A program made the position numbers and the translations under genes. A DNA stretch of 64,000 nucleotides from Candidatus Scalindua sediminis (GTDB lineage: Bacteria; Planctomycetota; Brocadiia; Brocadiales; Scalinduaceae): assembly GCA_008636105.1 (NCBI GenBank), contig VSDH01000011.1, positions 1-64,000 of the forward strand. Reading direction: 5' to 3'. The notes below the pieces were generated by a model, which searched no databases, was not told where the DNA came from, and saw only the letters and a program-made list of their open reading frames with translations. Positions 4,258 to 47,845 of this stretch are shown here, in pieces; positions within the stretch are counted from its first letter, which is position 1, and the number at the start of each line of letters is the position of its first letter.

Positions 4258-5967
4258 CTATGAGTCATTGTTTTTCTGAGAATCAACGGATGGTTTTACT
4301 TCATGAGATAAGTATTTTTTAAATTTGGTTATGATCTCTGTGTTCTTTCCTGTTCTATCATTAAGAAACCCCTTGATATTATCTATTACTTCTTTTTTCT
4401 TCTTACTTTTCAGTTTTAACTTTGCTATGTCAAATGCCTCAATCCTGAGCTCATCAAGGCCTAATTTCTTAATCCGTCGGGATGCAAACTTCATCGACTC
4501 ATCCCTTATCTCGGACAGGAACTCTGACGTTATTACGTTGTATCCTCTCTCCTTTGCTCGCTTCTCCATTAGTTTGTAAATTCCGGGTCTAACAAAATCA
4601 GGGGCATTTTTTACTCTCTCCAATGCCTCAGTCTCCCACTCAATCTTCCCATTATTTGCCTTCTTCTTTCCCATCATGCTAAGGAATGGAAACATCATCT
4701 TCTTATCAACTGCCATCTTTTCCTTTGCTTCTTTCATTATGTCCGGTGTTATTTCAGAATAACCCTTTTCCTTTGCATACTGTTCTACTCTCTTGATTAC
4801 CATCCCTCTTCCAAAGGAAGGTACTTTGTTCAGTCTCTTCTTTGCATCTTCACTCCATGAAAGCTCAAATCCTTTTTCCAGGCCAAAGGTGTTTTCAGCC
4901 TTTAGCATTATCTTCTTTCCTCCGTATTTTCCGGGCTCGTATTCACACCAGGAATCCTCTGCCATTTGATCACCCGTAGTGGCATAGGCCCTCGCACGGC
5001 AACCTTTGCACATTGATTCAAATTCACACTCTCCACATCTACCTTTAAGATTAGATTCCCTGAGCTCCTGCAAGATGCTGGAATCCCTCCAGATTTCTCC
5101 AAAGCTTTTTTCCCTTAGATTTCCACAGGATGTATCCATATACGGACAGGGAGTAACGTTTCCCTCCGGCGTAATCCTGCAATAGTTAGTGCCTGCAGGG
5201 CATCCGCCAGAATAGTATTTTACCAGCGCCGATTCAGGATCCATCTCATACGCTATTCTTCTATAATGTGGTGCGCACTTTGCGCTGACTAGCATCGTCC
5301 CCTCGTATTGTTTGTTCAGTTTATAAATCTGCTTAAGTGCGTCTTCGTACTGTTTTGAAGTGATGTCAGTTATGTCCTGGCCTCTTCCTGTACAGACAAG
5401 GAAGAAGAGGTTAAAGACCTTTGCCCCCATCTCGTTTGCAAAGGCAACGACATCTGGAATCTCATCATAATTCTTTTTAAACACTGTGGTTTGTATTTGT
5501 ATTTCGAGTCCATTTCTTTTACACGCCCTCATCCCTTCAATTGCCTTTTCCCAGGAACCTTTTAGTCCTCGAATTGAATCGTGGACATCTGGGCGCATGG
5601 AATCAAAGCTTATACCTATTCCTGAGACACCACTATCTCTTAACCTTTTGGCAACGTCATCGTTTATGAGGCAGGCATTTGTTCCCAAAAGGACCATCAT
5701 TCCCTTCCCGGAGGCGTGCCTGGACAAATCAAATATATCTCTTCGCAAAAGTGGTTCTCCACCTGTTAAGATTAGTATTATGTTTGGATTTATTTCTGCG
5801 ATATCGTCTATGATTTTATATGCAGCGTCTGTATCTAATTCATCAGAGGAGGGAATGTTCTGGTTGAGTGTCGTTTGAGTGTTATTTGTTGGCAGATAAC
5901 AGTGTGTGCATAATAAATTGCACCCCTTTGTGAGATTCCAGGATATTACGTGAGGTATGGATTTCAT
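4258..5967 (-). CDS. Radical SAM/SPASM protein with two PCP_red domains
   Basis: A 569-residue cytoplasmic iron-sulfur enzyme. The radical SAM cluster motif is C16-x3-C20-x2-C23 (KGCNLLCTHCYL), followed by the SAM-binding GGEP. A SPASM-type auxiliary-cluster region lies at about 255-345 (CPAGTNYC, CPYM, CGNL, CGECEFESMCKGC). This part resembles the AhbC/AhbD/NirJ group that modifies haem precursors, so a role in haem or haem d1-type tetrapyrrole synthesis is plausible but not proven. The C-terminus carries two copies of a module like the C-terminal PCP_red domain of light-independent protochlorophyllide reductase: about 369-417 (WSEDAKKRLNKVPSF) and about 442-490 (WETEALERVKNAPDF). It is divergent from the cytochrome cluster across a 615-bp region, and the last gene of that cluster carries a third PCP_red copy. 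Confidence 0.85.
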   Translation of the reverse strand: MKSIPHVISWNLTKGCNLLCTHCYLPTNNTQTTLNQNIPSSDELDTDAAYKIIDDIAEINPNIILILTGGEPLLRRDIFDLSRHASGKGMMVLLGTNACLINDDVAKRLRDSGVSGIGISFDSMRPDVHDSIRGLKGSWEKAIEGMRACKRNGLEIQIQTTVFKKNYDEIPDVVAFANEMGAKVFNLFFLVCTGRGQDITDITSKQYEDALKQIYKLNKQYEGTMLVSAKCAPHYRRIAYEMDPESALVKYYSGGCPAGTNYCRITPEGNVTPCPYMDTSCGNLREKSFGEIWRDSSILQELRESNLKGRCGECEFESMCKGCRARAYATTGDQMAEDSWCEYEPGKYGGKKIMLKAENTFGLEKGFELSWSEDAKKRLNKVPSFGRGMVIKRVEQYAKEKGYSEITPDIMKEAKEKMAVDKKMMFPFLSMMGKKKANNGKIEWETEALERVKNAPDFVRPGIYKLMEKRAKERGYNVITSEFLSEIRDESMKFASRRIKKLGLDELRIEAFDIAKLKLKSKKKKEVIDNIKGFLNDRTGKNTEIITKFKKYLSHEVKPSVDSQKNNDS

Positions 5968-6582: not shown

Positions 6583-9444
6583 ATGAAAAAAGAAGAAGAA
6601 AAATCATTTTTAGGTTTGTTCGTGTTGCTAGCTTTTATACTTGCAGCTACGAACGTGGGGGCACTATGGAATGAAATAGTAGGTAAAAGGCCCTGGAAGC
6701 ATTATCAATCTCGTTTTTATGAGCTGGAATATGAGAAGGCGAAAAAGAAATATGATGCTGCTGTATTGAAATTTGGGCAACCTGAAGAACAATATATGTA
6801 TAAAGCAGTCCAAAGGAAAATTGATGAGGCTAAGGAGGAGTTTGAAAGTCCAGAAGTACAAGACGAATACAAAAAGGCTTTAGAGGAGTTACGTACTTTA
6901 GAGGAGGAGTTGTCACCGTTGAGGTTTGAGGCGATAGTCACACGTAATAGGATGTTGGAAAAGAAATATCTGTATGGCAAATACAAGAAAGAGGAAGAAA
7001 ATGTAAAGGTAGAGGATGCGGTGTTAAGTATCATCAATCTGGATGAGAAGAATAAGGATTTAACTGAAAAGATTAAGTATATTGTAGAGAGGAGAGCTAG
7101 GTTACAAAAGAAGTTAGAAGGGTTTAAGAGTAAGATTAATAGGTACACAAAATATTTGGAGTCGCACGAGATTAGCATTCATAAATATAAGGAGGCTATG
7201 GAGAGATTAGGGTCGAGACGTCCACAGCTGCAGGTATACCAGGTGCGTCTTGAGGAGCTGAATGAGGTAGATAGGTGTATGACTTGCCACGTGGGTATAA
7301 ATGAAAAGAAAAGCGTTTCTGAGGAGCAGCCTTATAGTAGTCATCCAAGGAGAGAGGTATATCTTGGAAAACATCCACCTGAGGAGTTTGGTTGTGTTTT
7401 ATGTCATGAGGGACAGGCAAGGGCAACGACGAGTGTGGATAAGGCACATGGTGAGGTGGAATATTGGTTGAAGCCGATGTACAAGGGTAAGATGGCGCAA
7501 TCTTCGTGTATAAGATGTCATGATAAAGGTGAAGAGTTAGTAGGTGGCGAGGAAATTGCGAAGGCTGTAAAATTGTTTGATGAGTTGGGTTGTTATGGTT
7601 GTCATGAGACGAAGGGATTTGGAAGAGACAAAAGTAAGATGATTGGACCGGATTTGATTGAGATAAGCAGTAAGGTTAATCCGGCATGGTTGGTTTCATG
7701 GTTAAAAGGACCTAAGAATTTTAGGCCAAGTACAAGGATGCCAGATTTTATATTGGAAGAAAAAGAAGCAAAGGCAATAACTGCGTATTTATGGCAACAA
7801 TCAGAAGGGTTTACACCTGGTGAGCGGGAAGAATTTGATGAGGATACGATAGATGAAGGTGCATATATTTTTGAGAGTGTGGGATGTCTGGCATGTCACA
7901 GCGATGTGGAGGAAGATGGGAAGGTTTACGGGCCTAATCTTGCCAGGATTGGTGAAAAGGTCAATTATGAATTCTTGGTCAGTTGGTTGTTAAAGCCAAA
8001 AGCACACCAGCCTAAAACAAGGATGCCAGATTTCAGGCTTGATGAGGAAGATGCTCAATATTTAGCGGCGTATTTAACAACCTTAAAAAGCGAAGGGTAC
8101 GAGGAGAGATTGGAGGAACTTGAATGGTTGAACAGTCAGGAGGTAGCAGGACTGGGAGAGAAGCTAATATTCAGGGATGGTTGTTTCGGATGTCATAAGA
8201 TAGAGGGGATGGAGGATAAGAGTAAGATAGGAGTAGAGTTGACACAAATAGGTTCTAAGAATATACACTTGTTTGATTTTGGTTTAATGGAGAAAGAAAT
8301 ACTTGGCGGAGTTGGGCTGAAGCATGCAGCAGAGAATATAGGGGAGGCAAGGCATGCATGGATAAATGCGAAGTTAAGCGATCCAAGACAGTTTGATAAG
8401 GGTAGATATAAGATGCCTGAGGATAGATTAAGGATGCCCAATTTTGGTTTGACCGAAGATGAAATAAAGGAGTTATCGATACTGCTAACGGGAATGAGAG
8501 AGGAGGAATTGCCAGAGAGTTATATTGCTAAATTAAAGGGTTCGAAAAAGTATTTGGTAGAGGGTAAAAGAGTAATTGATAAATTTAATTGTCAGGGCTG
8601 CCATCAGTTCAGTATTGATACGCTTACTTTAAAGGGTGCGAATGAGATTAAGGGTATGGTTAAGTTAGAAGAGGAAGATAGTTTGTTTTTTCAATTATGG
8701 GAGGATAATGAACGGTTAGACCGTAAGGCTGGAGAGACTATACAAATATCAAAAGAGCAAATTAAGAATAGGATTAAATCTGAAGGAGGAGATATTGCCT
8801 CATTTATAATAGATTATCATGTAGAGGTTGAAGGTAGAGTTGCTGAAGAGGCCAGGGTATTTACTCCACCGGTGCTATATGGAGAAGGTAAAAAAGTGAG
8901 GAGTGCATGGCTTTTTGATTTTCTTGAAGAACCTGTCGGTTTGAGGCCATGGCTTGATGTACGTATGCCTACTTTTAAGATGACTGAACATGAGGCTACT
9001 ATATTAGCTAGATATTTTGCTACTCTAGAAGGAGAAAGATATCCATTCGAATACGTGAAAGAAACAAAGGCAAAATATATAGAAGAAAAGGAAAGAGAAA
9101 TGCCTGGTTATTTAGCCATGGCAAGACATTTGTTTGAATCTAAGGACGTAAACTGTGCGTCATGTCATGTCAGGGGAGATATAACCCCAGAAGGTGAACC
9201 ATCGGATTGGGCGCCGGATTTGTCTTTGGCAAGAAATAGATTAAAAGCGGATTGGATAGTGAGGTGGTTACTCGACCCTCAATTGATACAACCCGGCACA
9301 AAGATGCCAAAGTTTTTCAGGGAGGGTGTATTTCAAGATATTTTCCCCGGGACACCAGAGGAACAGGCTGAGGCGCTAAAGGACTTGTTGATGAACCTTC
9401 CAGAGGAGATGCTTAAGGAACAAAGAACCGAAACAGACGAATAA
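6583..9444 (+). CDS. Octahaem c-type cytochrome with coiled-coil N-terminus
   Basis: A 953-residue exported or membrane-anchored cytochrome. A hydrophobic segment (about 10-28) acts as signal or anchor. A long charged coiled coil follows (about 40-215, rich in E, K and heptad hydrophobics). Eight CxxCH haem c motifs lie near residues 233, 271, 309, 337, 435, 534, 670 and 858 (CMTCH, CVLCH, CIRCH, CYGCH, CLACH, CFGCH, CQGCH, CASCH). Several units end with a GPDL...W...P...R.P..RMPDF pattern, the Met-ligand segment of class I cytochrome c, so the protein looks built from repeated mono-haem domains. It is the first gene of the cluster. Function is inferred as electron transfer; the coiled coil may tether or multimerise it. 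Confidence 0.85.
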   Translation: MKKEEEKSFLGLFVLLAFILAATNVGALWNEIVGKRPWKHYQSRFYELEYEKAKKKYDAAVLKFGQPEEQYMYKAVQRKIDEAKEEFESPEVQDEYKKALEELRTLEEELSPLRFEAIVTRNRMLEKKYLYGKYKKEEENVKVEDAVLSIINLDEKNKDLTEKIKYIVERRARLQKKLEGFKSKINRYTKYLESHEISIHKYKEAMERLGSRRPQLQVYQVRLEELNEVDRCMTCHVGINEKKSVSEEQPYSSHPRREVYLGKHPPEEFGCVLCHEGQARATTSVDKAHGEVEYWLKPMYKGKMAQSSCIRCHDKGEELVGGEEIAKAVKLFDELGCYGCHETKGFGRDKSKMIGPDLIEISSKVNPAWLVSWLKGPKNFRPSTRMPDFILEEKEAKAITAYLWQQSEGFTPGEREEFDEDTIDEGAYIFESVGCLACHSDVEEDGKVYGPNLARIGEKVNYEFLVSWLLKPKAHQPKTRMPDFRLDEEDAQYLAAYLTTLKSEGYEERLEELEWLNSQEVAGLGEKLIFRDGCFGCHKIEGMEDKSKIGVELTQIGSKNIHLFDFGLMEKEILGGVGLKHAAENIGEARHAWINAKLSDPRQFDKGRYKMPEDRLRMPNFGLTEDEIKELSILLTGMREEELPESYIAKLKGSKKYLVEGKRVIDKFNCQGCHQFSIDTLTLKGANEIKGMVKLEEEDSLFFQLWEDNERLDRKAGETIQISKEQIKNRIKSEGGDIASFIIDYHVEVEGRVAEEARVFTPPVLYGEGKKVRSAWLFDFLEEPVGLRPWLDVRMPTFKMTEHEATILARYFATLEGERYPFEYVKETKAKYIEEKEREMPGYLAMARHLFESKDVNCASCHVRGDITPEGEPSDWAPDLSLARNRLKADWIVRWLLDPQLIQPGTKMPKFFREGVFQDIFPGTPEEQAEALKDLLMNLPEEMLKEQRTETDE

Positions 9445-9506
9445 ATTTATAGTAAGCGAATTTATTAGCTTGTACTTTTTGTACTTATAAATAGAGGGAG
9501 TTAAAA

Positions 9507-10286
9507 ATGAGTAAGTTTATTATTCGTTATGTGTGTCTTATAGCAGTAGTTACAATTTCGTTGATTCTGCTTTTTCATAATTCTAAAGGCATTATGGCTG
9601 CGTATGAGGAGGGCGACGTATCAAATGGAGGAACAATAACTGGTACAGTGAAATTTGTTGGTGACGTGCCAGAAGTGAAAATGCTAAATATGGATAAAGA
9701 TCGGGAAACATGTGGGCATGATCCCTCACCATCAGAAGCTTTATTGATATCTCCCGATAAGACTATAAAAAATGTTGTCGTATCCATTCAAAATATCTCA
9801 AAAGGAAAAAAATTTGAAAGACCGGCAGAAAACCCGTCAATCGATCAGAAAGGGTGTATCTTTATACCTCATGTTAAGATGATTCCACAGGGAAGTACTA
9901 TTGACCTCCTTAACAGTGATGACGTAATGCACAATTTACATTCATGGTCTATGAAGAACACCGCATTTAACGAGGGTGTAGCTGGTGGAGGGAAACTCGC
10001 TAAAACTTTTGAATTTTCTGAGACTATTAAGATGACGTGTGACGTACACAAATGGATGAGTGCATGGATCATAGTACAGAATAATCCATATTATACTTTA
10101 ACAGGTGAAAATGGTAAATTCCGGATTGAAGATGTACCACCTGGTACTTATACCCTTCGAGCCTGGCAGGAGTCTTTAGGGAGGGTTGCGCAGGAAATTA
10201 CCGTTAAAGCAGGGGAAGAAACAAAAGCTGACTTTGAAATGACGAAGAAGGAGAAGAGGAAAAGAAGAAGGAGAAAGGAAAAATAG
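9507..10286 (+). CDS. Cupredoxin-like copper protein with carboxypeptidase-regulatory-like domain
   Basis: 259 residues. An N-terminal signal or anchor helix is followed by a plastocyanin/methylamine-utilisation-type cupredoxin region. The likely type 1 copper ligands are seen as VMHNLHSW (His, about residue 145) and TCDVHKWM (Cys, His, Met, about 174-181). Next comes a small beta-sandwich of the carboxypeptidase-regulatory-like kind (YTLTGENGKFRIEDVPPGTYTLRAW). The C-terminus is extremely basic (KKEKRKRRRRKEK). It probably works outside the cytoplasm as a single-electron carrier beside the cytochromes. It lies 62 bp after the octahaem gene, with a hairpin after its own stop. Confidence 0.8.
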   Translation: MSKFIIRYVCLIAVVTISLILLFHNSKGIMAAYEEGDVSNGGTITGTVKFVGDVPEVKMLNMDKDRETCGHDPSPSEALLISPDKTIKNVVVSIQNISKGKKFERPAENPSIDQKGCIFIPHVKMIPQGSTIDLLNSDDVMHNLHSWSMKNTAFNEGVAGGGKLAKTFEFSETIKMTCDVHKWMSAWIIVQNNPYYTLTGENGKFRIEDVPPGTYTLRAWQESLGRVAQEITVKAGEETKADFEMTKKEKRKRRRRKEK

Positions 10287-10338
10287 GTTAATTACTCATT
10301 AAGAGGGAAAAAATCAAATAAAAGAATAAATCCCCCTC

Positions 10339-10363
10339 AATCCCCCTTTGAAAAAGGGGGATT
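10339..10363 (+). terminator. Hairpin terminator-like repeat
   Basis: AATCCCCCTTT, loop GAA, then AAAGGGGGATT, followed by TTGTT: an 11-bp stem with a short T-rich tail. It lies between the cupredoxin and CydA-like genes and could cause partial termination inside the cluster. The C-rich arm is also repeated just upstream (AATCCCCCTC), as in dispersed repeats. Confidence 0.5.
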
Positions 10364-10423
10364 TTGTTATGTATTACATCTTATATAAGTTTTCATGTTT
10401 ACTTCGTTTGTTTTAATTAAAGT

Positions 10424-12466
10424 ATGAACACAATAAAACTTTTCGTAAGTTCCACGCCCAAAAATCTTCATTTAAGAATTGCATTCACACTTTTTCTCGT
10501 CATTTTCTTTATAGCCCTGGCATCTAGCACTAGTATGGCTCAGGAGAATGCAGAAACTGCAGAAGTTGCAGAAACTGTAGAAACTGAAGAAACTGTAGAA
10601 ACTGCAGAACCTGAAGCACCTGCAGAACCTTATGAAGTCGTAGATTACAGGAACTTCTTTGGACTGGATGGCAGGCTGGCTATTTGGATAATTGCTCAGT
10701 TGCATCTCATGTTTGCTGCCTTTGTGCTGGGGGTACCAATCTTTGCAGTTATAGTTGAGATTATAGGAGCAAAGAGCGGTGATATAAGATTTGATAATTT
10801 AGCACGTGAATTCACAAAGCTTTTGTCAGCGGCTTTTGCTACGACGGCCTCGTTGGGCGGTTTGATGGCGTTTGCTTTATACGGCTTATATCCCGGCTTT
10901 ATGCGTTATATGACGGATGTCTTTCATCCGTTTATGTTCATATATGCAATTTGTTTCTTTGGTGAGGCGTTTTGTCTTTACGGTTATTACTACTCCTGGG
11001 ATTTACTTGCGAAGAAGGGTAAATGGTTCCATATAACGCTGGGTATCATGCTGAACCTTTTCGGTACAGCCTTAATGCTGTTGGCTAATTCATGGGCAAC
11101 TTTTATGATGGCACCTGGCGGTATTAATATGGAAACCGGGACGGTGCAAAGTCTTTATCATGCATTTTATAATTTCCTCTGGATGCCCCTTAATATCCAT
11201 CGTCTGATTGCAAATGTTGCTTTTGGAGGTTTTGTAGTAGGTGCTTATGCTGCTGTTAAATTCATGGGGGCAAGAAGCCATGAAGAAAAGGCACATTATG
11301 ATTGGATGGGTTACATAGGTAATTTTGTAGGATTGGGAGCCTTAATACCACTGCCATTTGCTGGTTATTATCTTGGGAGAGAAATTTATAGTGCCAGCCC
11401 GGTTATGGGAAATATTATGATGGGTGGTGCCTTCTCCTGGACATTCATAATCCAGGCAATCCTTATCGGAATGTTATTTATTGGTGGAAATTATTACTTA
11501 TGGAATGGTATGAGCAGGATAAAGGGTGCTGAACGATACACGCCTTATATCAAATACATAAACATAATAATCATCTTCTGCTTTGCTGTCTGGCTGACGC
11601 CTCATAATTTACCATTAAGTGGAGAGGAAAGGGCCCTTATCGGTGAACAATATCATCCATTTTCGAAATTTTTTGGGGTTATGGCTGCGAAGAATGCAGT
11701 CGTAAACCTCTTAATCTTATCTACATTCTTCAGTTTTCTTTTGTATAGAAGGGCTAATAAAGGCGAAACAATGCCTTTTTCAAGTCATGGTAAATCTGCA
11801 AAGGTTGCCCTGATTATTACGGCTGGTCTTACTATACTGTATCTGGCATGGTATGCCCTGGGGCTTAGGGGAATTGAGCTGGAAGAAAACATAAGGCAGT
11901 ATCTGTCTCCTCTCATTACGTGTCTTGTTATTCAGATAATTGCAATTGTCATTACCATCCTTCTTACCTTTGCAAACAGGGGTAAATTTGCTCAGGCTTT
12001 TCTATTTGGGGTGACGACAATTACTTCTGTTATGTATATGGCGTATTATGGATTTGTAGTTATGGAAAAGGCAAATCTGGTTTTAAGATATTTATCTGTT
12101 GCACAGGTTTCAATAGTAATAAGTTGTTTGATTGTTAATACTATTATAGATATCTTTCTCTTTAAAAATGCTAAAGAAGTTGGTGGCATTCAATGGGGGA
12201 AAATACCTCTCAGGGCACAGTATGCCTTATTGCTTCTTTGTGTAGCGATTGTGACGCTTATGGGACTGATGGGGTTCATACGTTCAGGTCTAAGGATGAA
12301 CTGGCATATTTATGGGTTTATGCAGGACACTTCGGCAGGTGCATTTACCCCGAGTATCGCTTATATGGGCTGGACTGTTAGTTTAATTGTCATAATATTT
12401 CTCGCTCTTTTGGCATTTGTTTTCTGGCTTGCGGGTTTAGGTGAGAAAAAGAAGCAACATTCATAA
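10424..12466 (+). CDS. CydA-like multi-span membrane protein (divergent cytochrome bd subunit I)
   Basis: 680 residues with about 14 transmembrane helices. An N-terminal signal-like helix and an acidic ETVETEETVETAEPEAP linker precede the core, unlike standard CydA. The core aligns with cytochrome bd subunit I: QLHLMFAAFVLG matches the E. coli H19 helix, CFFGEAFCLYGYYYSWD matches the E107 helix (E107 kept, the E99 position replaced by Ile), and NIHRLIANVAFGG matches the H186 haem b ligand. The GRQPW motif and a recognisable quinol loop are not seen, and there is no cydB nearby. About five extra C-terminal helices are present. Comparable CydA-like proteins next to c-type cytochromes are known in nitrite oxidisers and anammox bacteria. 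Oxygen, NO or another terminal reduction are all possible. Confidence 0.8.
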   Translation: MNTIKLFVSSTPKNLHLRIAFTLFLVIFFIALASSTSMAQENAETAEVAETVETEETVETAEPEAPAEPYEVVDYRNFFGLDGRLAIWIIAQLHLMFAAFVLGVPIFAVIVEIIGAKSGDIRFDNLAREFTKLLSAAFATTASLGGLMAFALYGLYPGFMRYMTDVFHPFMFIYAICFFGEAFCLYGYYYSWDLLAKKGKWFHITLGIMLNLFGTALMLLANSWATFMMAPGGINMETGTVQSLYHAFYNFLWMPLNIHRLIANVAFGGFVVGAYAAVKFMGARSHEEKAHYDWMGYIGNFVGLGALIPLPFAGYYLGREIYSASPVMGNIMMGGAFSWTFIIQAILIGMLFIGGNYYLWNGMSRIKGAERYTPYIKYINIIIIFCFAVWLTPHNLPLSGEERALIGEQYHPFSKFFGVMAAKNAVVNLLILSTFFSFLLYRRANKGETMPFSSHGKSAKVALIITAGLTILYLAWYALGLRGIELEENIRQYLSPLITCLVIQIIAIVITILLTFANRGKFAQAFLFGVTTITSVMYMAYYGFVVMEKANLVLRYLSVAQVSIVISCLIVNTIIDIFLFKNAKEVGGIQWGKIPLRAQYALLLLCVAIVTLMGLMGFIRSGLRMNWHIYGFMQDTSAGAFTPSIAYMGWTVSLIVIIFLALLAFVFWLAGLGEKKKQHS

Positions 12467-12532
12467 ACTCCTGCTAATGCATGTGAAGTGGCAGGCTTCA
12501 TACAACTATAAATGTTGGAGCAATTATAAATA

Positions 12533-13480
12533 ATGAGAAGTTTCTTAAACGCAGTGGTATTTACCTTATTTGTAGTAGGATTTTTTGCCTATGTTTGCAT
12601 GTACGTAACAGGACTTTCCGGTGGTGGAGATGGTGGAGCGGTTACCGGAGTCAGCCCTGAAGCAGGCGAAAAGATATTTTGGGGAGAAGGACAGTGCCAT
12701 ACGTGTCATAGTATTGGTACATCCGGAAGCGCCACAAGAGGCCCTAATCAAGAAGGTCTTGTATCAAGAGCAGAAGAAAAAGCAAAAGAAAGAGGTTTGA
12801 GTTCAGGCCTGGAATATATGGTTGAAGCAATAGTAGACCCTGATAAGTTTGTGGCGGAGGGTTATGATAAGATAATGCCAAAGGTATATGATCCTCCAAT
12901 CATGTTGGGGCGAGAAAAGATCTTGGCTGTACTTTCATTCTTACAAACATTGGGAGGCGAGCCTGATATTGATGCAGTAATGAAGTTTAAGGACAAGATT
13001 CCTGAGGCATCAAAAAAGAAGATAATTCCCTGGGTTCCACCTATAGAGGTGGAACCGAAAGAAGGTGAATTGGTCTTTTTTGATGAAACGAGAGATGTTT
13101 CGTGTTCAAAGTGCCATGTCTTAAGCGGAAAAGGTTCTAAGGTAGGGCCTGAGCTTACAGGCATAGGAGCAGTACAGACGCCTCAATATCTGATAGAATC
13201 AATCCTTAAACCGAGTGAGGTGATAGTTAAGGGTTTTGAAACTATGTACCTGATAACAACTGACGGTATGGCTTATAACGGAATTATTCAGAGCCAGAGT
13301 GAAGAAGAAGTGGTGTTATTGGTAGATGAGGAAGGTGAGATAGTGGAATATGTTTTCTATCCAGATGAGATTGAGCAGATGCAAAAACAGGATATCTCTA
13401 TGATGCCGGGAAATTTCAGTGAGCTGTTAACTACAAAGGAATTTTATGGAGTTATTTCGTTTCTCTTGAGCCAGAAATAA
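12533..13480 (+). CDS. Dihaem cytochrome c with Planctomycete-type haem-binding domain
   Basis: 315 residues. An N-terminal membrane segment (about 5-25) is followed by a haem motif CHTCH near 55 and a second CSKCH near 191. The segment after the second haem (VGPELTGIGAVQTPQYLIESIL, then KGFETMYLITTDG and a closing GVISFL) resembles the Planctomycete-type putative haem-binding domain family. It probably sits on the periplasmic side of the membrane and shuttles electrons within the cluster. It begins 66 bp after the CydA-like gene. Confidence 0.8.
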   Translation: MRSFLNAVVFTLFVVGFFAYVCMYVTGLSGGGDGGAVTGVSPEAGEKIFWGEGQCHTCHSIGTSGSATRGPNQEGLVSRAEEKAKERGLSSGLEYMVEAIVDPDKFVAEGYDKIMPKVYDPPIMLGREKILAVLSFLQTLGGEPDIDAVMKFKDKIPEASKKKIIPWVPPIEVEPKEGELVFFDETRDVSCSKCHVLSGKGSKVGPELTGIGAVQTPQYLIESILKPSEVIVKGFETMYLITTDGMAYNGIIQSQSEEEVVLLVDEEGEIVEYVFYPDEIEQMQKQDISMMPGNFSELLTTKEFYGVISFLLSQK

Positions 13481-13685
13481 ATGCATTAGATTTGTTACGA
13501 GGAGAACTTCTGGAAACCTCCCCGAAAGTAGGCTCTGTAAGAGCGAAAGGGAGGCGGCCTTGCTTTCCCGTCCGACCAAGTCATCCGGGCGGGCGCAAGG
13601 AATCCAATCATCATGCTAAATGGTGTCCTGAAAAGGGCATGAGTGTTTAACAAAAAGATACATTTTAATGAGGAAGGTTATTTAG

Positions 13686-14459
13686 ATGGGAAAGAAAAAA
13701 AATTCATATTCAATGATATTGGTTATCATATCAATCCTGGTAGTTTTTGTCATTATAAAATATATTGCCCCTTACGTCTTCATGATTGTGTTGGCAAAGG
13801 ATCATACCATGCCAACACCAAGCACACTCATACTGTGGTATATGATTTTAGCTATACTTGGAGCCCTTGTTTACGTCTCAACGAGTGATCTCAAGTGGGC
13901 AAAATTTCTAAGTTTTATCTTACCTGCCGGTGATGATAAGACAAAGGCGATACTTCAAAAGATGATAATCGTAGCCTTTCCTGTGCTGGTAGGTTGGTTT
14001 GTTTATTCTGGAACTGCACCAGGGACGGCTTCGCCAGTAGAACTGCGAATCCAGCATCCTACTTTATTGCAAGAATTTGAGAAATTGGAAAATCCATTTG
14101 CACATGTTAATGAAGAGACTAAAAAAAGATACATTGAAGAAGGAAAGATTCTTTATCAACAGAATTGCCGCCCGTGTCATGGGTCAAAGGCTGATGGTAA
14201 TGGTCCTTTTGCTAATGCATTTCGTTTGCGACCTATTAATTTTACCGATCCCGGGACGATAGCAACTGTAGTAGAAAGTTTTGCATTTTGGAGAATCAGG
14301 GATGGGGGACCAGGACTTCCCGGCGCGTCTACTCCATGGGATTCTGCTATGCCTTCCTGGAAAGATACTTTGAATGACGAGCAGATCTGGAAGATCATAA
14401 TGGGTGAATATGTTACTGCAGGCGTTGTAGCACGTCAAAGAGAAAAGATAGAGCACTAA
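13686..14459 (+). CDS. Membrane-bound monohaem cytochrome c
   Basis: 257 residues. Three hydrophobic segments (about 8-35, 46-62 and 88-108) precede a soluble cytochrome c domain with one CRPCH motif at about residue 161 and the following GSKADGNGPFA segment typical of class I cytochromes. A distal Met is likely in SAMPSW. It looks like the membrane-anchored cytochrome subunit of a complex. The upstream 200-bp spacer holds a GC-rich repeat but no gene. Confidence 0.8.
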   Translation: MGKKKNSYSMILVIISILVVFVIIKYIAPYVFMIVLAKDHTMPTPSTLILWYMILAILGALVYVSTSDLKWAKFLSFILPAGDDKTKAILQKMIIVAFPVLVGWFVYSGTAPGTASPVELRIQHPTLLQEFEKLENPFAHVNEETKKRYIEEGKILYQQNCRPCHGSKADGNGPFANAFRLRPINFTDPGTIATVVESFAFWRIRDGGPGLPGASTPWDSAMPSWKDTLNDEQIWKIIMGEYVTAGVVARQREKIEH

Positions 14460-14478
14460 AATAAACAGGGTTCTTAAT

Positions 14479-16185
14479 ATGTACAAGATCAAAAGTAATC
14501 TCATTTTAAAATGTTCATTTGTTTGTTTGCTTGCTGCGGCGTTAGCTTTCTTATGCCTCAGTGTGGGGTTTGCCCAGACTACGCAAATATTCAGGACTTA
14601 CAAAACAGGAGTTACTGCGAGGATACCACAGACACCTGAAGCAATTGCGGCGGGGAAAGCGATTTATGAGAAAAGGTGCTATTACTGTCATGGGATAAAG
14701 GGTGACGGAAATGGTCCTGCTGCACCGCGCCTGGACCCAAAACCAAGAAACTTTACAAGGAATGAGTATAAAATACGTTCCACGGAACTTGGTACACTTC
14801 CTACAGATGAAGATCTCTTCAGAATAATTACCAGTGGCGTAGAAGGTACGGCCATGCCTTTCTGGAGTACCCTGAGCAGTGAAGAAAGATGGCAGGTTAT
14901 ATATTACGTTAAGACGTTTTATGAAGGTTTTAAAGAATCTGAAGCTCATGAAGTAGTTCCTATAAGTGGAGAAATACCTTCAGATTCAGAGTCTGTTAAA
15001 CGCGGTAAGGAGTTGTTTAAAGAGGCGAAATGTTTGCTGTGTCATGGAGAAGATGGTAGAGCAGACGGCCAGATTACGACTACGTTAAAGGGAAAGTGGA
15101 ACTTTCCATATAAAGCAAGAAATCTGACAAAGAGTTGGTTGTTTAAGGGTGGCAATACAACAAAGGATATCTATAGAACGGTGACAACAGGCATTAATGA
15201 AACACCAATGGGTACGTACGCAGACTTTCTTACGGATGAAGACAGATGGCACCTTACACATTACGTAAAAACCCTCTCTCACGATATGAATACAGAGGTT
15301 GTGCTAAAGTCGAAATTGGTTGAAGGGGATTTGCCGGAAGGTCCTGATGGTGCTGCCTGGGATACGGTAAGTTCGATAGAAATGCCTTTGGCCGGTCAGA
15401 TTGTTGCTAGACCCAGGTTGTGGATTCCTTCTGTAAACTCTATAAGAATAAAATCTATGTACAACAAAGAGGATATTGTATTTTTGTTGGAGTGGGATGA
15501 TAAGACAAATGAGCAAGATGAAACTTATAGCGATGCTGTAGCACTTCAGTTTCCAACGAAGATTCCTGAAGGGATGAAAAAACCCTATTTTGCAATGGGA
15601 GAATCGGGCAAGAGTGTTACCATCTGGCACTGGAGGGCATACGATGAATTTAAACAAACTGAGAAAAATGAAAACGGTGGCAATACGGAGGCAGCGACTG
15701 ATGGTGGTAGTAGTGTAGCTGAACACGAGGAATCGGAAGAACAAGAAGAAGAGAAAATAGCAGAAGAAAAGCCAAAGGAAAAGTTTAAGGGATTTGCAAC
15801 AATTAAGGAAATGAATGCAAAAGGGTTTAAAAATCTTGCTGAACAACCATCCAATAGCCAGCATTCGAAGAGTAAGAGTTACTGGAAAAATGGCAAATGG
15901 AAGGTTATGATAACCAGACCTCTTATGACTGATGACAAGAAAATAGATATTCAATTCGAAACAGGGAAACTGATTCCTTATGCATTAGCTGCCTGGGATG
16001 GTTCAAATAGCGAGATCGGAGGTCAAAAATCAATCTCCTCATGGTATTATTTGGTTTTGGAAATAACTACCCCAAGAAGTGTTTACCTTTATGTACTTAT
16101 TGCCATAATAATGGGAGTAAGCATTCAATTTTGGGTTATTGGAAGGATAAGGAGATTTCCACCTAAAATTACTACAGAGGAATAA
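14479..16185 (+). CDS. Dihaem cytochrome c fused to an ethylbenzene-dehydrogenase-type haem b domain
   Basis: 568 residues. A signal peptide ends near AQTTQIF. Two cytochrome c domains follow with CYYCH (about 67) and CLLCH (about 185), each with the GDGNGPAA or DGRADG segment. The second half (about 290-520) resembles the haem b-binding gamma subunits of type II DMSO-reductase-family enzymes (ethylbenzene dehydrogenase, NxrC): LWIPSVNSIRIKSMYNKED, VALQFP and a GKSVTIWHW region. A Glu/Lys/Gly-rich insert (about 393-435) interrupts it, and one transmembrane helix (about 536-556) anchors the C-terminus. The fusion would pass electrons from haem b to haem c, or the reverse, within one chain. Only 19 bp separates it from the preceding gene. 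Confidence 0.8.
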   Translation: MYKIKSNLILKCSFVCLLAAALAFLCLSVGFAQTTQIFRTYKTGVTARIPQTPEAIAAGKAIYEKRCYYCHGIKGDGNGPAAPRLDPKPRNFTRNEYKIRSTELGTLPTDEDLFRIITSGVEGTAMPFWSTLSSEERWQVIYYVKTFYEGFKESEAHEVVPISGEIPSDSESVKRGKELFKEAKCLLCHGEDGRADGQITTTLKGKWNFPYKARNLTKSWLFKGGNTTKDIYRTVTTGINETPMGTYADFLTDEDRWHLTHYVKTLSHDMNTEVVLKSKLVEGDLPEGPDGAAWDTVSSIEMPLAGQIVARPRLWIPSVNSIRIKSMYNKEDIVFLLEWDDKTNEQDETYSDAVALQFPTKIPEGMKKPYFAMGESGKSVTIWHWRAYDEFKQTEKNENGGNTEAATDGGSSVAEHEESEEQEEEKIAEEKPKEKFKGFATIKEMNAKGFKNLAEQPSNSQHSKSKSYWKNGKWKVMITRPLMTDDKKIDIQFETGKLIPYALAAWDGSNSEIGGQKSISSWYYLVLEITTPRSVYLYVLIAIIMGVSIQFWVIGRIRRFPPKITTEE

Positions 16186-16218
16186 TGACAAATAGTATTA
16201 ATGGTAGGTCGCATAATA

Positions 16219-17733
16219 ATGAAAGTATTTAATAAAAATAGAATGTTTTCTATATCGTATTTTGTATTGGCATATATGGTTATTGGTTCCATTTTTGTTT
16301 TTGGTAGGGTTCTTTTTGCAGAAGTCCCAGAACCGGATCCGTTTTTTTTAGAATTGGAAGAGCTTTACAGGGGCGATAAAAAATATAAACACTTACCATT
16401 TGAACTGGATGACCCTCATAAACGTCCCAAAAACGGACCTACTCTCAAGAATGTTATACACAAAGCTAATAAGGAATGGCTTAAGAAGTGGATATCAAAT
16501 CCTCCTGAAATGGTTCCTAATGCCAGAATGCCAAGACTCATGCTTAATGATGACGAGATCGAAGCAGTTTTAGCATATTTAACAAGTATTGCCGATAATG
16601 AACTACCCAAACAGGAATGGGATCCATATCTTTCAAAGCATGAGGATGAAATGAGCGATGAAGAATACGAAAAGATGGATGTATTAGTTTCAGGAGGCAA
16701 GGCAGTTTGGGGGCGCGCCAGATGTAATTTATGTCATCCCGTAAAAGGTGAGGGTGGCGCTGTAGGCGTAGGGCCAGACTTAGGTACAATAGCTGAAAAA
16801 ATAAACCGTGACTGGTTATATCTTTGGATTAAAGAGCCCAAAAGCTATTTTCATGATACTCAGATGGCAAGATATAGATTTAATGATAAGGAATTGAGAC
16901 TATTGATTGAATATATTATGAGGGATTGGGATTTTATACCAGAAGAGGAAGAGGAAGAGGAAGAGGATGAAGAAGAAGAGGAAGAAGTTGAACGTGAAAA
17001 TGAGAAAACAAGTGAACATGAAGCAAGCGAAAGCGCAGAGGTTGAGGAAATAACGAAATCATCTATTATTCCAGAAGGATCATTAGCTGAAAAAGGAAAG
17101 AGGATTATTGAGTTAAGCCGATGCTTTATTTGCCATGAGATTGAAGGTGTATCTGATCTGTTACCAATTGCCGAAAGAGATGATAAACCTGCTGAGGGTT
17201 TTGAGGGGTTGTTAAATGATATTAAATGCATGACATGTCATAATATTCAGGGAAAGGGTGGAACTTTTGCGCCAGAATTGACCCATGAGGGTAGTAAACT
17301 CAAAGAATCATGGATAAGGGATTTTCTCCAGACTCCGGATATTATACGTCCGTTGTTAAAACAGATGCCAAAGTTTAATTTAACTGCAGAGGAAGCGGAA
17401 ACTGCAGTGAAATTTATAGAGGAGTATTTTGTAAGTGAAGAAATTCCTTTAGCAAAATTTGCTGATGTTGAACCTACAGAAGAGGAGATTGGTAAAGGAA
17501 AGGAATTGTACGATGCCAAGGGGTGCAGGACTTGCCATACGATGGCGGAGGGTGGTGTTGTTGGGCCTACTTTGAAGAGAGTTGGCGACCGGCTCGAAAA
17601 TGGTTATATCTTTGCCCATTTGAAGGATCCATACCGGGAAATGCCTGATGCAGTAGAACCCAATTATACCCTTACTGACGAAGAGGCGATTGCAATAACA
17701 CATTACCTGATGTCTTGCAGGAGTAAGAAATAG
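16219..17733 (+). CDS. Tetrahaem c-type cytochrome with poly-Glu linker
   Basis: About 504 residues from ATG 16219, preferred because a clean signal peptide (SYFVLAYMVIGSIFVFG) follows; an in-frame ATG at 16201 is the alternative. Four haem motifs are present: CNLCH near 170, CFICH near 303, CMTCH near 338 and CRTCH near 438, each followed by G(P/A)xL and RMP-type Met segments in most units. Between haems 1 and 2 lies a long acidic linker of almost pure Glu/Asp (about 240-285). It is probably periplasmic and part of the same electron-transfer chain. The domain arrangement repeats that of the octahaem protein encoded at 6583. Confidence 0.8.
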   Translation: MKVFNKNRMFSISYFVLAYMVIGSIFVFGRVLFAEVPEPDPFFLELEELYRGDKKYKHLPFELDDPHKRPKNGPTLKNVIHKANKEWLKKWISNPPEMVPNARMPRLMLNDDEIEAVLAYLTSIADNELPKQEWDPYLSKHEDEMSDEEYEKMDVLVSGGKAVWGRARCNLCHPVKGEGGAVGVGPDLGTIAEKINRDWLYLWIKEPKSYFHDTQMARYRFNDKELRLLIEYIMRDWDFIPEEEEEEEEDEEEEEEVERENEKTSEHEASESAEVEEITKSSIIPEGSLAEKGKRIIELSRCFICHEIEGVSDLLPIAERDDKPAEGFEGLLNDIKCMTCHNIQGKGGTFAPELTHEGSKLKESWIRDFLQTPDIIRPLLKQMPKFNLTAEEAETAVKFIEEYFVSEEIPLAKFADVEPTEEEIGKGKELYDAKGCRTCHTMAEGGVVGPTLKRVGDRLENGYIFAHLKDPYREMPDAVEPNYTLTDEEAIAITHYLMSCRSKK

Positions 17734-17749
17734 ATTGGAATACAAAAAA

Positions 17750-18394
17750 ATGTTAGTAAGAAATTTTCAATTTGGAATAATAATTTTCTTGTTTGTCATA
17801 GGGACTTTTTTTAAACTTACTGATGCCGCTGAAGAAGTGGAACCTTCGCAACAAGGTGACGCAGCAAAACAGGAGATAACCTTAATAGAAGAGCATAAAG
17901 TGTATTTGGCTACTCCCAAAAAGACCTTTCAATATTTTTGTGGTCCGTGCCATGGAGATTCAGCCGATGGGAAAGGTATCTATTTCACTATTGACCTACA
18001 ACCACGTCCAAGAGATTTGACTGATGTGGAATATATGGCAAAATTAACGGATGATTATCTTCTGAATTTTATTACAAAAGGTTCTGCTGCAATGGAAAAA
18101 TCAGATCTGTGTCCTCCCTGGGGTGGCACGTTTGAGGAGGACAGAATCAAGGGTATTATTGCTTATTTGCGGGGCTTGACTATCTCAAAATCAAAGATAG
18201 AAAAAAAACCTGCAGAGAAAGAGGAGGTTGAAAAAGAGGGAGAAAAAGTGGTAAAGGTTTCTGGGGAGGGGGGAAATGGGGCTCCAAAGGCAGTTATATG
18301 GAGTGTTTTGATTATATTGTGTTCATTCTTTGCATTTGCTGCTATAAAAGAATGGAAGAAACTGGGCATAGAAGAGGCTTCAAAAAACGAATAA
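17750..18394 (+). CDS. Small membrane-anchored monohaem cytochrome c
   Basis: About 214 residues. A signal peptide (NFQFGIIIFLFVIGTFF) is followed by a cytochrome c domain with CGPCH near residue 60 and DSADGKGIYF. A charged KKPAEKEEVEKEGEKV linker leads to a C-terminal transmembrane helix (AVIWSVLIILCSFFAFAAI), so the haem domain faces outside with a C-terminal anchor. ATG 17750 is chosen; an upstream TTG at 17735 has AGGAG ten bases before it and is the alternative. It starts 16 bp after the tetrahaem gene, consistent with one operon. Confidence 0.75.
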   Translation: MLVRNFQFGIIIFLFVIGTFFKLTDAAEEVEPSQQGDAAKQEITLIEEHKVYLATPKKTFQYFCGPCHGDSADGKGIYFTIDLQPRPRDLTDVEYMAKLTDDYLLNFITKGSAAMEKSDLCPPWGGTFEEDRIKGIIAYLRGLTISKSKIEKKPAEKEEVEKEGEKVVKVSGEGGNGAPKAVIWSVLIILCSFFAFAAIKEWKKLGIEEASKNE

Positions 18395-18405
18395 GGAGTA
18401 AATAA

Positions 18406-19650
18406 TTGTACAAAAAGATTTTCATACCGATAGATAATTCGAAATATTCTGGTTATTGTTCAGATCTAGGAATATCAATAGCAAAGATGTTTTCTTCTGA
18501 ATTGATAGGAGGCCATGTTTATGCGGCAAACCTGCATCACAAGAGATTCAGAGAAATGGAAAGTGGATTACCAGAAAAATATAGGGATGAAAATGAACTA
18601 AAGAAGCAGAGGAAATTTCACAATTCATTGATTGGTCGCGGGCTTAGGATGATATCAAATTCCTACCTCGATGGCCTCGATAAAAAATGCCAAAATGAAG
18701 GGGTTCCTTTTACCCGGAATATCCAGGAAGGTAAAAACTATCTTGAGTTGGTTAAAGATATAAACGACAAAGATTATGATCTCGTTATAATTGGTATACG
18801 AGGCTTAGGAGAAACTAATGGCAACCTGATTGGTAGTGTTTGTGAAAGGGTTGTTAGAAGGATTAACACAGATGTACTAGTAGTTAAGGATGATAAACCT
18901 CTGGATGGCAAGATAATAGTTGCTGTTGACGGAAGTGAACAATCTTTCGGGGCTGTAGAAATAGCAGGCAAACTGACGAAAAAATATGAATCGGAGATGG
19001 AAGCTTTATCAGTTTATGATCCTCATTATCATAGAGTGGCCTTTAATGGTATTGCAAAGATACTTACTGGAGAGATGGGTAATGTATTTAAGTCGGAAGA
19101 GCAGGAAAAGCTACATGAAGACGTAATTGACAAGGGACTGGAGAAGATTTATCATGGGCATCTGAAAGTTGCCTTAAACAGAACAAAGGATTTTGGCATT
19201 GAGATAAAAACTACACTACTTGAAGGTAAACCCTATGATCAAATATTGAAGCATGTTGAAAAAGTAAAGCCATCATTATTGATATTAGGGCGTACGGGTA
19301 TACATGCCATAAACGGCCTGGATATCGGAAGCGCAACAGAAAATATATTGCGCTTTGCTAAGTGTAATGTTCTTATAACAAAAAGTAGGAAGGATGTAGG
19401 AGTCAATCCTTTTTATGAAAAGAAAGAGAATATAGGTATCGAACAACCTTTAAATCAGACCGTTGAAGCAGGGGAGGTTTCCTGGGATAAAGATGCCAGT
19501 CATTTGATTTCAAAGGTCCCTGCCTTTGTGAGGAAAATGGTAGTTAAAGAAATAGAGAGTTATGCCAGAAACAAGGGCAGTAGTGAGATTACGAGAGAAA
19601 TTGTCGAAGAGGCCAAGGCAAGATGGTCTAATGCGATGAATTATTCTTGA
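18406..19650 (+). CDS. Tandem universal stress protein with C-terminal PCP_red domain
   Basis: 414 residues. Two UspA-type domains (about 1-155 and 163-325) carry the nucleotide-binding style segments (VIIGIRGLGETNGNLIGSV and LILGRTGIHAINGLDIGSA). The C-terminus (about 358-410, VSWDKDASHLISKVPAFVR) is a PCP_red-like module closely resembling the two copies in the radical SAM protein at 4258-5967. The start is TTG 18406, supported by AAGGAG seven bases upstream. It is the last gene of the cytochrome run and starts 11 bp after the preceding stop. A regulatory or cofactor-related role is likely. The fusion of Usp with PCP_red is unusual. Confidence 0.85.
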   Translation: MYKKIFIPIDNSKYSGYCSDLGISIAKMFSSELIGGHVYAANLHHKRFREMESGLPEKYRDENELKKQRKFHNSLIGRGLRMISNSYLDGLDKKCQNEGVPFTRNIQEGKNYLELVKDINDKDYDLVIIGIRGLGETNGNLIGSVCERVVRRINTDVLVVKDDKPLDGKIIVAVDGSEQSFGAVEIAGKLTKKYESEMEALSVYDPHYHRVAFNGIAKILTGEMGNVFKSEEQEKLHEDVIDKGLEKIYHGHLKVALNRTKDFGIEIKTTLLEGKPYDQILKHVEKVKPSLLILGRTGIHAINGLDIGSATENILRFAKCNVLITKSRKDVGVNPFYEKKENIGIEQPLNQTVEAGEVSWDKDASHLISKVPAFVRKMVVKEIESYARNKGSSEITREIVEEAKARWSNAMNYS

Positions 19651-27948: not shown

Positions 27949-28980
27949 TTACCTCCACACATATGGCGGATAAGCATCCAGATCACCGCGCAGATAACGA
28001 GCCATAAGCATTGCCTGCACATGAAAAAGAAGTCCTATGGTCACCTTCTCATTAAGGAATGGATGCACAATCTCATCCTGTTTTCTTGTCTGATAAGCTG
28101 TAAGTACGGTTTTTCTTGTTTCATCATCCATCAGTACCGCACCGTTTTCTTTAATTTCAAAACCTTTAATCTTCACCTGGCCGAGGTTAATCAGTGAAAG
28201 TACAAGGCGATCTGCCAGGAACGGGCGAAACTCTTCCATTAAATCAAGAGCCAGGCTGGGCCGTCCGGGACGGTCTCTGTGGAGGAAGCCGACCGCGGGA
28301 TCAAGACCGACAGTCTCTAACGCCGATCTGACATCATGCATGACAATCGTATAGATAAATGATAAAAGACAATTCACCGTATCCAGAGGAGGCCTGCGGC
28401 TTCGTTCATGAAATACAAAATCTTCTTTCTGTGAAGTAATCAGATAGTCGAATACGCCGAAATAGGTCAATGCCGCTTCTCCTTCGATTCCACGTAAAAG
28501 ATCCAGCGGTAATTCTGATTGCAGTCTTTTTAATGAATATGAAAGTTTCTGTGAAGCCATGGTCACAGCGTTTAACTCAATTTTATCTGAATGATCCCGC
28601 AGCACCCGTTCTAGCACTATGCGGCAATTGGCTATTTTACCGGTCAAGACCGACCTTGCTATTGACGCGGATGTTTCAAGGTCGTCTGCCCGGCGATACT
28701 GTTCACGCCTCAGCAGGACATTCCCTGAGACCGGCCCCTGTACCTTTGCAAGAAACCGTCCGTACTCTGTCAGGAAACTTATTGCTACATTCTGCTCCGC
28801 ACAGTATCCCATCAGATATGGACTGCAGGAAACTTGTCCGAAACATACAATTCCGCCAATTGTATGTACCGGAAGACGTAGGCGCACATCATTATCTACT
28901 TTAACAATAACAGTCTCGCCCTCTTTTGCGAGATATGCTCCCTGTGTTGTAACAAACAGAGTATTCAGGTGTCTTTTCAT
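27949..28980 (-). CDS. cas1: CRISPR-associated endonuclease Cas1, type I-C
   Basis: 343 residues, the usual I-C length. It is the catalytic subunit of the spacer integrase. Family segments are NTLFVTTQGAYLAKEGET at the N-terminus, EGEAALTYFGVFD (catalytic Glu), DPAVGFLHRDRPGRPSLALD (His and Asp of the active site) and the C-terminal YPPYVWR. It lies 74 bp downstream of cas4. Confidence 0.95.
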   Translation of the reverse strand: MKRHLNTLFVTTQGAYLAKEGETVIVKVDNDVRLRLPVHTIGGIVCFGQVSCSPYLMGYCAEQNVAISFLTEYGRFLAKVQGPVSGNVLLRREQYRRADDLETSASIARSVLTGKIANCRIVLERVLRDHSDKIELNAVTMASQKLSYSLKRLQSELPLDLLRGIEGEAALTYFGVFDYLITSQKEDFVFHERSRRPPLDTVNCLLSFIYTIVMHDVRSALETVGLDPAVGFLHRDRPGRPSLALDLMEEFRPFLADRLVLSLINLGQVKIKGFEIKENGAVLMDDETRKTVLTAYQTRKQDEIVHPFLNEKVTIGLLFHVQAMLMARYLRGDLDAYPPYVWR

Positions 28981-29054
28981 TTTATTTTTTTGTTATGCCA
29001 TTTACTGTTCGACAGTTCTACTGTCGAACACCAAGATGCTAGAGTTCTACTCTT

Positions 29055-29693
29055 TCAACTCTCCGTCATTTTCAAAAGATAAGCGCTTGCCTTTCCCTTT
29101 TTGCCGCACGTTTTTGGCATACACATTTGCACCAGAGAGCAACTTTTGCACTTTTTTGAATACTCAGGTTTCGGAGTTATTCCAGCGCTGATAAGTTCGT
29201 GTACTTTCTTTGCAGTCTCTTCCGTCTCTGTTCTTAAGGCCGTGTCAAATGTAACATCCTCTCTTCGTCTGGTTGTCCCGTAAAACAACGCTCCTTCGCT
29301 AATATTACAATTGAGCATCTCCTCAAGACATATGGCCTGTGCGCAGAGCTGGACTTTATCGCAGTTGTCCTTTTTGGGCTTGCCTCTCTTGTATTCAACA
29401 GGGAATGGATGCCAGTTAGCCCCCTGCCGGTGAAATTCCACTACATCCGCCTTTCCGATCAGGCCAAGCCGCAGCGACCTGAGCGGCACGCCATATTCAA
29501 TGCGGATATCCCTGCGTTTGTCCTGCCCGGCAGTATCAACCTTGTCGTGCATGATCCTGCCTTCGGCGGTAAACAGGTTTTCACTCCACAACTGCTCAAT
29601 GTGTATCAACGCACACTGTCTCTCGCAAAATATAATGTGCTGCAGTGCCGATAATTGAATGAGATCATCCTCGGTATAAGTCTTATTGGTCAT
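29055..29693 (-). CDS. cas4: CRISPR-associated Cas4 exonuclease
   Basis: 212 residues, RecB-like PD-(D/E)XK nuclease with an iron-sulfur cluster. Visible parts are the first Cys in IFCERQCALIHIEQLW, the metal ligands around GKADVVEFH and PVEYKRGKPKKD, QLCAQAICLEEML, and the C-terminal CKSCSLVQMCMPKTC cluster Cys. In I-C systems Cas4 trims and orients prespacers for Cas1-Cas2. The gene begins 7 bp after the four-helix-bundle gene that interrupts the usual cas7-cas4 junction. Confidence 0.95.
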   Translation of the reverse strand: MTNKTYTEDDLIQLSALQHIIFCERQCALIHIEQLWSENLFTAEGRIMHDKVDTAGQDKRRDIRIEYGVPLRSLRLGLIGKADVVEFHRQGANWHPFPVEYKRGKPKKDNCDKVQLCAQAICLEEMLNCNISEGALFYGTTRRREDVTFDTALRTETEETAKKVHELISAGITPKPEYSKKCKSCSLVQMCMPKTCGKKGKASAYLLKMTES

Positions 29694-29700
29694 ATATGAC

Positions 29701-31170: not shown

Positions 31171-31199
31171 TAAAGCCTCCTTTTTCTGTGTTATAAAAT

Positions 31200-34093: not shown

Positions 34094-34102
34094 CCCCTTT
34101 AT

Positions 34103-43441: not shown

Positions 43442-43498
43442 TTCTCACTCCTTGTTCAGTAAATAGGGGTTTATGTTTTATCTTTATTATGTTTTGAA

Positions 43499-44920: not shown

Positions 44921-44989
44921 AATTACTATTTATCTTCACTAAACTTGTAGGTTGGTCAATTTAGGTAATATAATGGTATAATATAATGT

Positions 44990-45745: not shown

Positions 45746-45758
45746 ACTTAAAATTATT

Positions 45759-47792: not shown

Positions 47793-47845
47793 TATTATAC
47801 TCCCTATTTTATGAATTATAAATTTTGATGTTCATACACTTCTGA

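Follow-up and report, generated by a model that had tools for sequence, protein, structure and literature searches.

A cytochrome bd-like gene cluster in Candidatus Scalindua sediminis and its possible role in nitrite-derived electron transfer

The stretch of DNA considered here, hereafter the window, comprises positions 1 to 64,000 of contig VSDH01000011.1 of Candidatus Scalindua sediminis (GCA_008636105.1), and carries at 6583-18394 a cluster of eight genes for six c-type cytochromes, a type 1 copper protein and a protein resembling CydA of the cytochrome bd oxidases. Our reading is that this locus encodes a membrane-anchored, bd-like electron-transfer complex which serves nitrite oxidoreductase (NXR), moving electrons derived from nitrite, and to this we attach a probability of about 0.52. 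The reading bears on two questions, namely the route by which anammox bacteria and nitrite oxidisers deliver nitrite-derived electrons to the quinone pool, and the role of bd-like proteins. Comparison across genomes narrows both, inasmuch as the module follows NXR, has no second CydA-like partner (A', see below) in anammox bacteria, is absent where NXR adjoins a cytochrome b complex, and recurs beside loci of the iodate-reductase type.

The host, an anammox bacterium which belongs to the Scalindua family and forms its own genus in the genome grouping used, encodes hydrazine synthase (contig C25) and NXR (contig C44). Among its nearest relatives, namely Candidatus Scalindua and allied anammox metagenome-assembled genomes (MAGs), the CydA-like protein is 75-84% identical to that of the host.

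The cluster and its relationship to nitrite oxidoreductase

All eight open reading frames lie in one direction on the + strand, as an initial annotation made from the sequence alone had described, and are separated by gaps of 62, 137, 66, 205, 19, 15 and 1 bp. The cytochromes that it had listed, with 8, 2, 1, 2, 4 and 1 haems, are also borne out: CxxCH motifs number 8, 0, 0, 2, 1, 2, 4 and 1 along the eight genes, 18 in total (in shuffled protein the count averages 0.013 and never exceeds 1), and Pfam cytochrome c domains occur in six of the proteins. The cluster runs beyond 18394, since a Usp-PCP_red gene begins 11 bp downstream, and a radical SAM gene lies divergently upstream. The features are as follows.

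4258-5967, - strand: radical SAM/SPASM protein of NirJ2/AhbD type with two C-terminal PCP_red domains, 569 aa, proposed to modify tetrapyrroles (Pfam Radical_SAM, SPASM, 2x PCP_red)
6583-9444, + strand: gene 1, octahaem c-type cytochrome of the type of the Rieske/cytochrome b complex octahaem subunit, 953 aa (8 CxxCH; synteny)
9507-10286, + strand: gene 2, type 1 cupredoxin with a carboxypeptidase-regulatory-like C-terminal domain, 259 aa, kustd1713 position (copper ligands; Pfam CarboxypepD_reg)
10424-12466, + strand: gene 3, CydA-like (bd-like) protein with signal peptide and no Q-loop, 680 aa, kustd1712 position (PF01654, AlphaFold, fold matches)
12533-13480, + strand: gene 4, dihaem cytochrome c with a signal or N-terminal transmembrane helix, kustd1711 position (2 CxxCH; conserved synteny)
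13686-14459, + strand: gene 5, monohaem cytochrome c with three N-terminal transmembrane helices, kustd1710 position (1 CxxCH; transmembrane scan)
14479-16185, + strand: gene 6, alternative NxrC with two cytochrome c domains, an EB_dh/DMSO-reductase gamma domain and a C-terminal transmembrane helix, 568 aa, kustd1709 position (Pfam, TIGR03477)
16201-17733, + strand: gene 7, tetrahaem cytochrome c, kustd1708 position (4 CxxCH; cytochrome c domains)
17735-18394, + strand: gene 8, monohaem cytochrome c with a C-terminal transmembrane helix and a TTG start, kustd1707 position (1 CxxCH; transmembrane scan)
18406-19650, + strand: protein with Usp domains and a C-terminal PCP_red domain, 414 aa, kustd1706 position (PF00582, PF08369)

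Genes 2 to 8 and the Usp gene match kustd1713 to kustd1706 of Kuenenia gene for gene and in the same order, a region which forms part of the published Kuenenia NXR cluster (PMC6423088). That cluster, kustd1699-kustd1713 with kustd1712 as cydA, has the same succession of cupredoxin-like, cydA-like, dihaem, monohaem, dihaem, tetrahaem, monohaem and uspA genes; it differs from the locus described here in that the latter begins with an octahaem complex III cytochrome, is flanked by a radical-SAM-PCP_red gene which is unlinked in Brocadiaceae, and has its nxrABC genes elsewhere, on C44. In three Brocadiaceae genomes (G015, G032, G034) the order cupredoxin-CydA-2c-1c-EB_dh(2c)-4c-1c-Usp (numerals denoting haems) stands directly upstream of nxrC-nxrB-torD-zinc finger-nxrA. 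The same order is kept in Scalindua relatives and across those anammox families that have the cluster, and is partly conserved in other phyla. The suggestion of the initial annotation that the genes specify a distinct complex thus survives in part: the conserved order makes one respiratory unit probable, but the combination is not new, since Kuenenia, Nitrospira and Nitrospina have already been reported to possess the cluster and its bd-like protein (PMC3578206, PMC6606698, PMC6423088).

The link to NXR had been missed by that annotation, as had the NxrC-type domain of gene 6, the tie of gene 1 to the Rieske/cytochrome b complex and the flanking radical-SAM and PCP_red genes. Gene 6 does carry the two CxxCH motifs of the dihaem cytochrome that it had been taken for, but it is an NxrC-type (ethylbenzene-dehydrogenase/DMSO-reductase gamma) protein by its EB_dh domain (PF09459, E=3.6e-30; TIGR03477, E=1e-34, which is under the TIGR03477 cut-off) and not a simple dihaem cytochrome. 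The type 1 copper assignment of gene 2 stands, with a His-Cys-His-Met ligand set (H142, C178, H181, M184) invariant across 87 homologues.

Gene 1 is most likely the displaced octahaem subunit of the Rieske/cytochrome b complex on host contig C18, because octahaem genes of this type directly follow split cytochrome b genes in relatives (two Scalindua MAGs, Anammoxibacter, S. rubra and the Brocadiaceae genome G034; loci L045, L049, L066, L067 and L161), and because the C18 set (cupredoxin-Rieske-cyt b-FAD/FeS-cyt b) has no octahaem gene beside it. The two Scalindua MAGs (L045, L049) have Rieske, cytochrome b, octahaem, cupredoxin and CydA-like genes as one run. A GltD-like FAD/4Fe-4S protein of about 570-590 aa is also encoded within Rieske/cytochrome b operons (L132:3889-5598; L171:10944).

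From these associations a path can be proposed in which electrons would leave NXR through an NxrC-type haem b, travel by way of the alternative NxrC (gene 6), small c-type cytochromes and the cupredoxin, and enter the CydA-like protein at its periplasmic-type face. From there they would go either into the quinone pool or on to the Rieske/cytochrome b complex for which gene 1 encodes the octahaem subunit, the uphill step being driven by the membrane potential. The path, its direction, the membrane-potential drive and the assembly of the proteins into a single complex are what we infer, whereas gene content, synteny and the direct linkage to nxr in Brocadiaceae are read from the sequences themselves.

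The distribution of the module across the order bears on the same question. PF01654, the family of the CydA-like protein, is present in 52 of its 62 genomes. Each of the 33 Brocadiaceae genomes holds a single PF01654 gene, always of the bd-like type (in G040 as two fragments). One family (f3) has none in its nine genomes, while six of these encode hydrazine synthase and seven give a strong NxrA match. The module is therefore not essential for anammox, its absence across f3 counting as one event. Two f3 genomes (G005, G007) have the NXR operon EB_dh(2c)-nxrA-nxrB-torD-cyt b-cyt b-octahaem-cupredoxin, whose EB_dh, cytochrome b and octahaem genes point to the same job being done by another route; in other words, f3 may use a cytochrome b complex directly. 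At L157:3198-17300 and L158:3696-17100, both f3 loci, NXR lies in one operon with cytochrome b, an octahaem cytochrome and a cupredoxin.

The CydA-like protein and the alternatives to a role with NXR

The Pfam domain Cyt_bd_oxida_I (PF01654) spans only residues 84-327 of the 680-residue protein. In alignment with Escherichia coli CydA, H94, E181 and H259 take the positions of H19, E107 and H186, and Y174 that of E99, which bears out the statement of the initial annotation that the first three equivalents are kept and E99 is not. Among 42 dereplicated relatives from several phyla, Tyr replaces E99 in every ungapped row, and Y174, H203, H259, H394, H411, M420 and H628 are invariant where ungapped; two Burkholderiales-type rows have Lys instead of H94, two rows carry Tyr for H291, and the residue at E181 is different in two. 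Accordingly conserved in this set, H94, H259, M420 and the further invariant histidines are candidate ligands. The AlphaFold model (predicted template modelling score 0.84) shows a signal peptide and some 15 membrane helices, and helix parity would place H94, H259, H394, H411, M420 and H628 nearer the periplasmic-type side, with H203 and H291 nearer the opposite one. By eye, the C-terminal helices offer no clear equivalent of the b595 ligand E445.

That the protein is not part of a standard quinol bd oxidase, as had been proposed, is upheld. It lacks the GRQPW quinol motif and has helices where the Q-loop would sit; E99 is replaced; a signal peptide and a longer C-terminal helix region set it further apart from canonical CydAB; and no CydB-like gene is found among the neighbours of the locus, to which the search for CydB was confined. 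What it shares with canonical CydA is the set of N-terminal helices bearing the H19, E107 and H186 equivalents, together with its fold, the best solved matches to the model being CydA chains. A solved structure of the OR-N type was sought in the same way, and only canonical CydA and, more weakly, CydB chains were returned. The combination of a PF01654 N-terminal core, histidine ligands and extra helices without a quinol site is that of the bd-like/OR-N proteins. A description from 2013 gives the bd-like protein of the cluster 14 helices, with three standing where the Q-loop would be, and no quinol residues (PMC3578206), and in Nitrospira the same unit was described together with alternative NxrC proteins (PMC6606698). 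The Nitrospira and Nitrospina forms (bd-like_3/_4 with alt_NxrC_2) resemble the present locus in lacking the quinol site, in their extra helices in place of the Q-loop, in their haem-ligand residues, in an NxrC-like partner and in cytochromes c. In some MAGs the CydA-like or octahaem orthologues are broken by stops or frameshifts (L082, L096, G050:C66, G055:C112, G046:C12:111543-114380), through assembly error or decay.

A quick tree of the CydA-like proteins (long branches; support by SH-aLRT, the Shimodaira-Hasegawa-like approximate likelihood-ratio test, only) yields two deep clades. Clade A contains the window protein, all anammox orthologues and the first copies of tandem pairs; clade B contains the second copies (A'), of about 600 aa. 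Two further CydA-like paralogues of the host, on contigs C7 and C65, fall outside clade B in this tree, such that no CydA/CydA' pairing is found. The C65 paralogue (L121:18282-20000 to L122), of about 844-860 aa, is fused at its C-terminus to a dihaem cytochrome c.

In this regard, the question arises as to whether the CydA-like protein might instead be a cytochrome c-fed O2 reductase of the OR-N/CydAA' type, used in microaerobic respiration or in defence against O2. OR-N proteins of Nitrospinota and Nitrospirales have been interpreted in this way (PMC10839748, PMC12342949), and the interpretation accords with the CydA chains as nearest folds, with the retained H19 and H186 equivalents and with the two distinct tandem copies, A and A', of aerobic relatives. 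Nitrospira, Nitrospina and the proteobacterial relatives do carry the second paralogue, but the tree places no clade-B partner in the host genome, in Brocadiaceae or elsewhere in this anammox order; E99 is replaced by an invariant Tyr; and in Kuenenia the cluster is transcribed in anammox reactors, where it follows nitrite (PMC6423088). An O2 reductase is accordingly a reading we regard as unlikely, though one to be taken seriously. A mainly non-catalytic anchor, docking NXR and its cytochromes at the membrane, would suit gene 6 as a membrane-bound NxrC relative, and an anchor role for the complex has been proposed in Nitrospira (PMC6606698). Yet the CydA-like protein keeps several histidines and a methionine unchanged in both deep clades and in several phyla, which suggests that it binds cofactors, and we consider a mere anchor improbable.

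Nitric oxide (NO) is an intermediate of anammox and is bound by bd-type enzymes, and the initial annotation had named it among possible acceptors, for which the cluster would act in NO reduction or detoxification. The expression of the Kuenenia cluster disfavours this and favours a role in nitrite oxidation. When NO replaces nitrite, cydA falls 5.2-fold, the cluster 2.2-7.7-fold and nxrA 9.3-fold, and when NO is added to nitrite, cydA falls 1.7-fold (PMC6423088). An NO reductase was rejected on these data and is very improbable indeed.

Several observations nevertheless weigh against the preferred reading, in which the complex carries electrons from NXR. The bd-type quinol site is absent from the CydA-like protein, and therefore a reaction with quinone would need a new site. 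The CydA protein went undetected in Kuenenia, where protein levels barely change and do not track the transcripts (PMC6423088). In the host itself, nxrABC is unlinked to the cluster, on C44. Moreover, the module is not tied to NXR alone, since the paralogue module on C7 (L119:11973-20939) adjoins genes for cbb3-type CcoN-like and trihaem CcoO/P-like proteins.

A further setting of the module is found in many MAGs of Alpha- and Gammaproteobacteria, where it comes after a pair of dihaem peroxidases of the MauG type and after a Rieske protein and a molybdoenzyme that both score over the arsenite-oxidase cut-offs. This layout is that of idrP2-P1-B-A of iodate reductase. At L088:1140-9855 and similar loci (L072-L117) of marine and groundwater Proteobacteria MAGs, the module stands directly downstream of such genes, usually as two tandem copies. 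A limited search of the iodate-reductase literature found no mention of a bd-like neighbour.

Radical SAM and PCP_red proteins beside the module

The radical SAM protein at 4258-5967 resembles NirJ and AhbD, of haem d1 and haem b synthesis, in its Radical SAM and SPASM domains and in its best NCBIfam matches, NirJ2 (348 bits) and AhbD (326 bits). It differs from them in that both scores are under the 500-bit equivalog cut-offs, in its fusion to PCP_red and in its position in a tree, where radical SAM proteins of the PCP_red type cluster together (SH-aLRT 87), away from the housekeeping AhbD that the same genomes encode. The possibility that it is the only haem b synthase of the host is rejected in view of a stronger AhbD match on contig C14 (G000:C14:266455, 507 bits), and an AhbD-type gene occurs in every genome of the order except one incomplete genome. 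A plasmid search with the protein returned only general SPASM proteins, about 34% identical.

The PCP_red-fused radical SAM paralogue is found in families f1, f2, f4 and f5 and is lacking in f3. The PCP_red domain itself occurs in 51 of the 62 genomes of the order, in none of the nine of f3, and in one of 14 control genomes (the phototroph Synechococcus), in a comparison where controls are unmatched and relatives share ancestry. Among genomes of other groups that carry the CydA-like module, 25 of 26 have it. In Proteobacteria, at least nine contigs have Usp-(PCP_red)n and radical-SAM-PCP_red downstream of the module and in the same orientation, and after these a gene of about 465 aa, which in two cases (L216, L217) was identified as protoporphyrinogen oxidase, scoring 256 and 270 bits where the cut-off is 98. 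The pair of Usp-PCP_red and radical-SAM-PCP_red genes also follows the module in KSB1 (L069), Myxococcota (L065), Anammoxibacter (L135) and one further genome (G061), and Usp-PCP_red adjoins the module in Planctomycetota, KSB1, Myxococcota and Proteobacteria. No description of this association was found in the literature.

PCP_red is known from protochlorophyllide reductase, and a dedicated haem modification for the module appears plausible because of that occurrence and because NirJ, AhbC and AhbD act on tetrapyrroles. This activity of all three enzymes is documented (PMC7242693). Tentatively, and with the odds somewhat against it, the module may have its own haem-maturation cassette, in which the radical-SAM-PCP_red protein, a carrier of the Usp-PCP_red type and, among Proteobacteria, protoporphyrinogen oxidase would jointly synthesise a modified tetrapyrrole that the CydA-like protein requires, and supply it. 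The linkage thus leads to a direct prediction, that of a modified haem; if true, nitrite (and iodate-type) electron transport would rely on a novel haem cofactor. Caution is advised by the occurrence of Usp-PCP_red-like fusions in Methanomicrobiaceae as well (PMC12159084).

Elsewhere in the window, on the - strand, CRISPR-Cas genes lie at 27949-36586, among them cas1, csd1 and a cas3-like gene, with Csd1 suggesting type I-C. An oxidative pentose phosphate run at 41912-48871 (- strand) encodes glucose-6-phosphate dehydrogenase, 6-phosphogluconate dehydrogenase, a 6-phosphogluconolactonase-type protein, transketolase and glucokinase.

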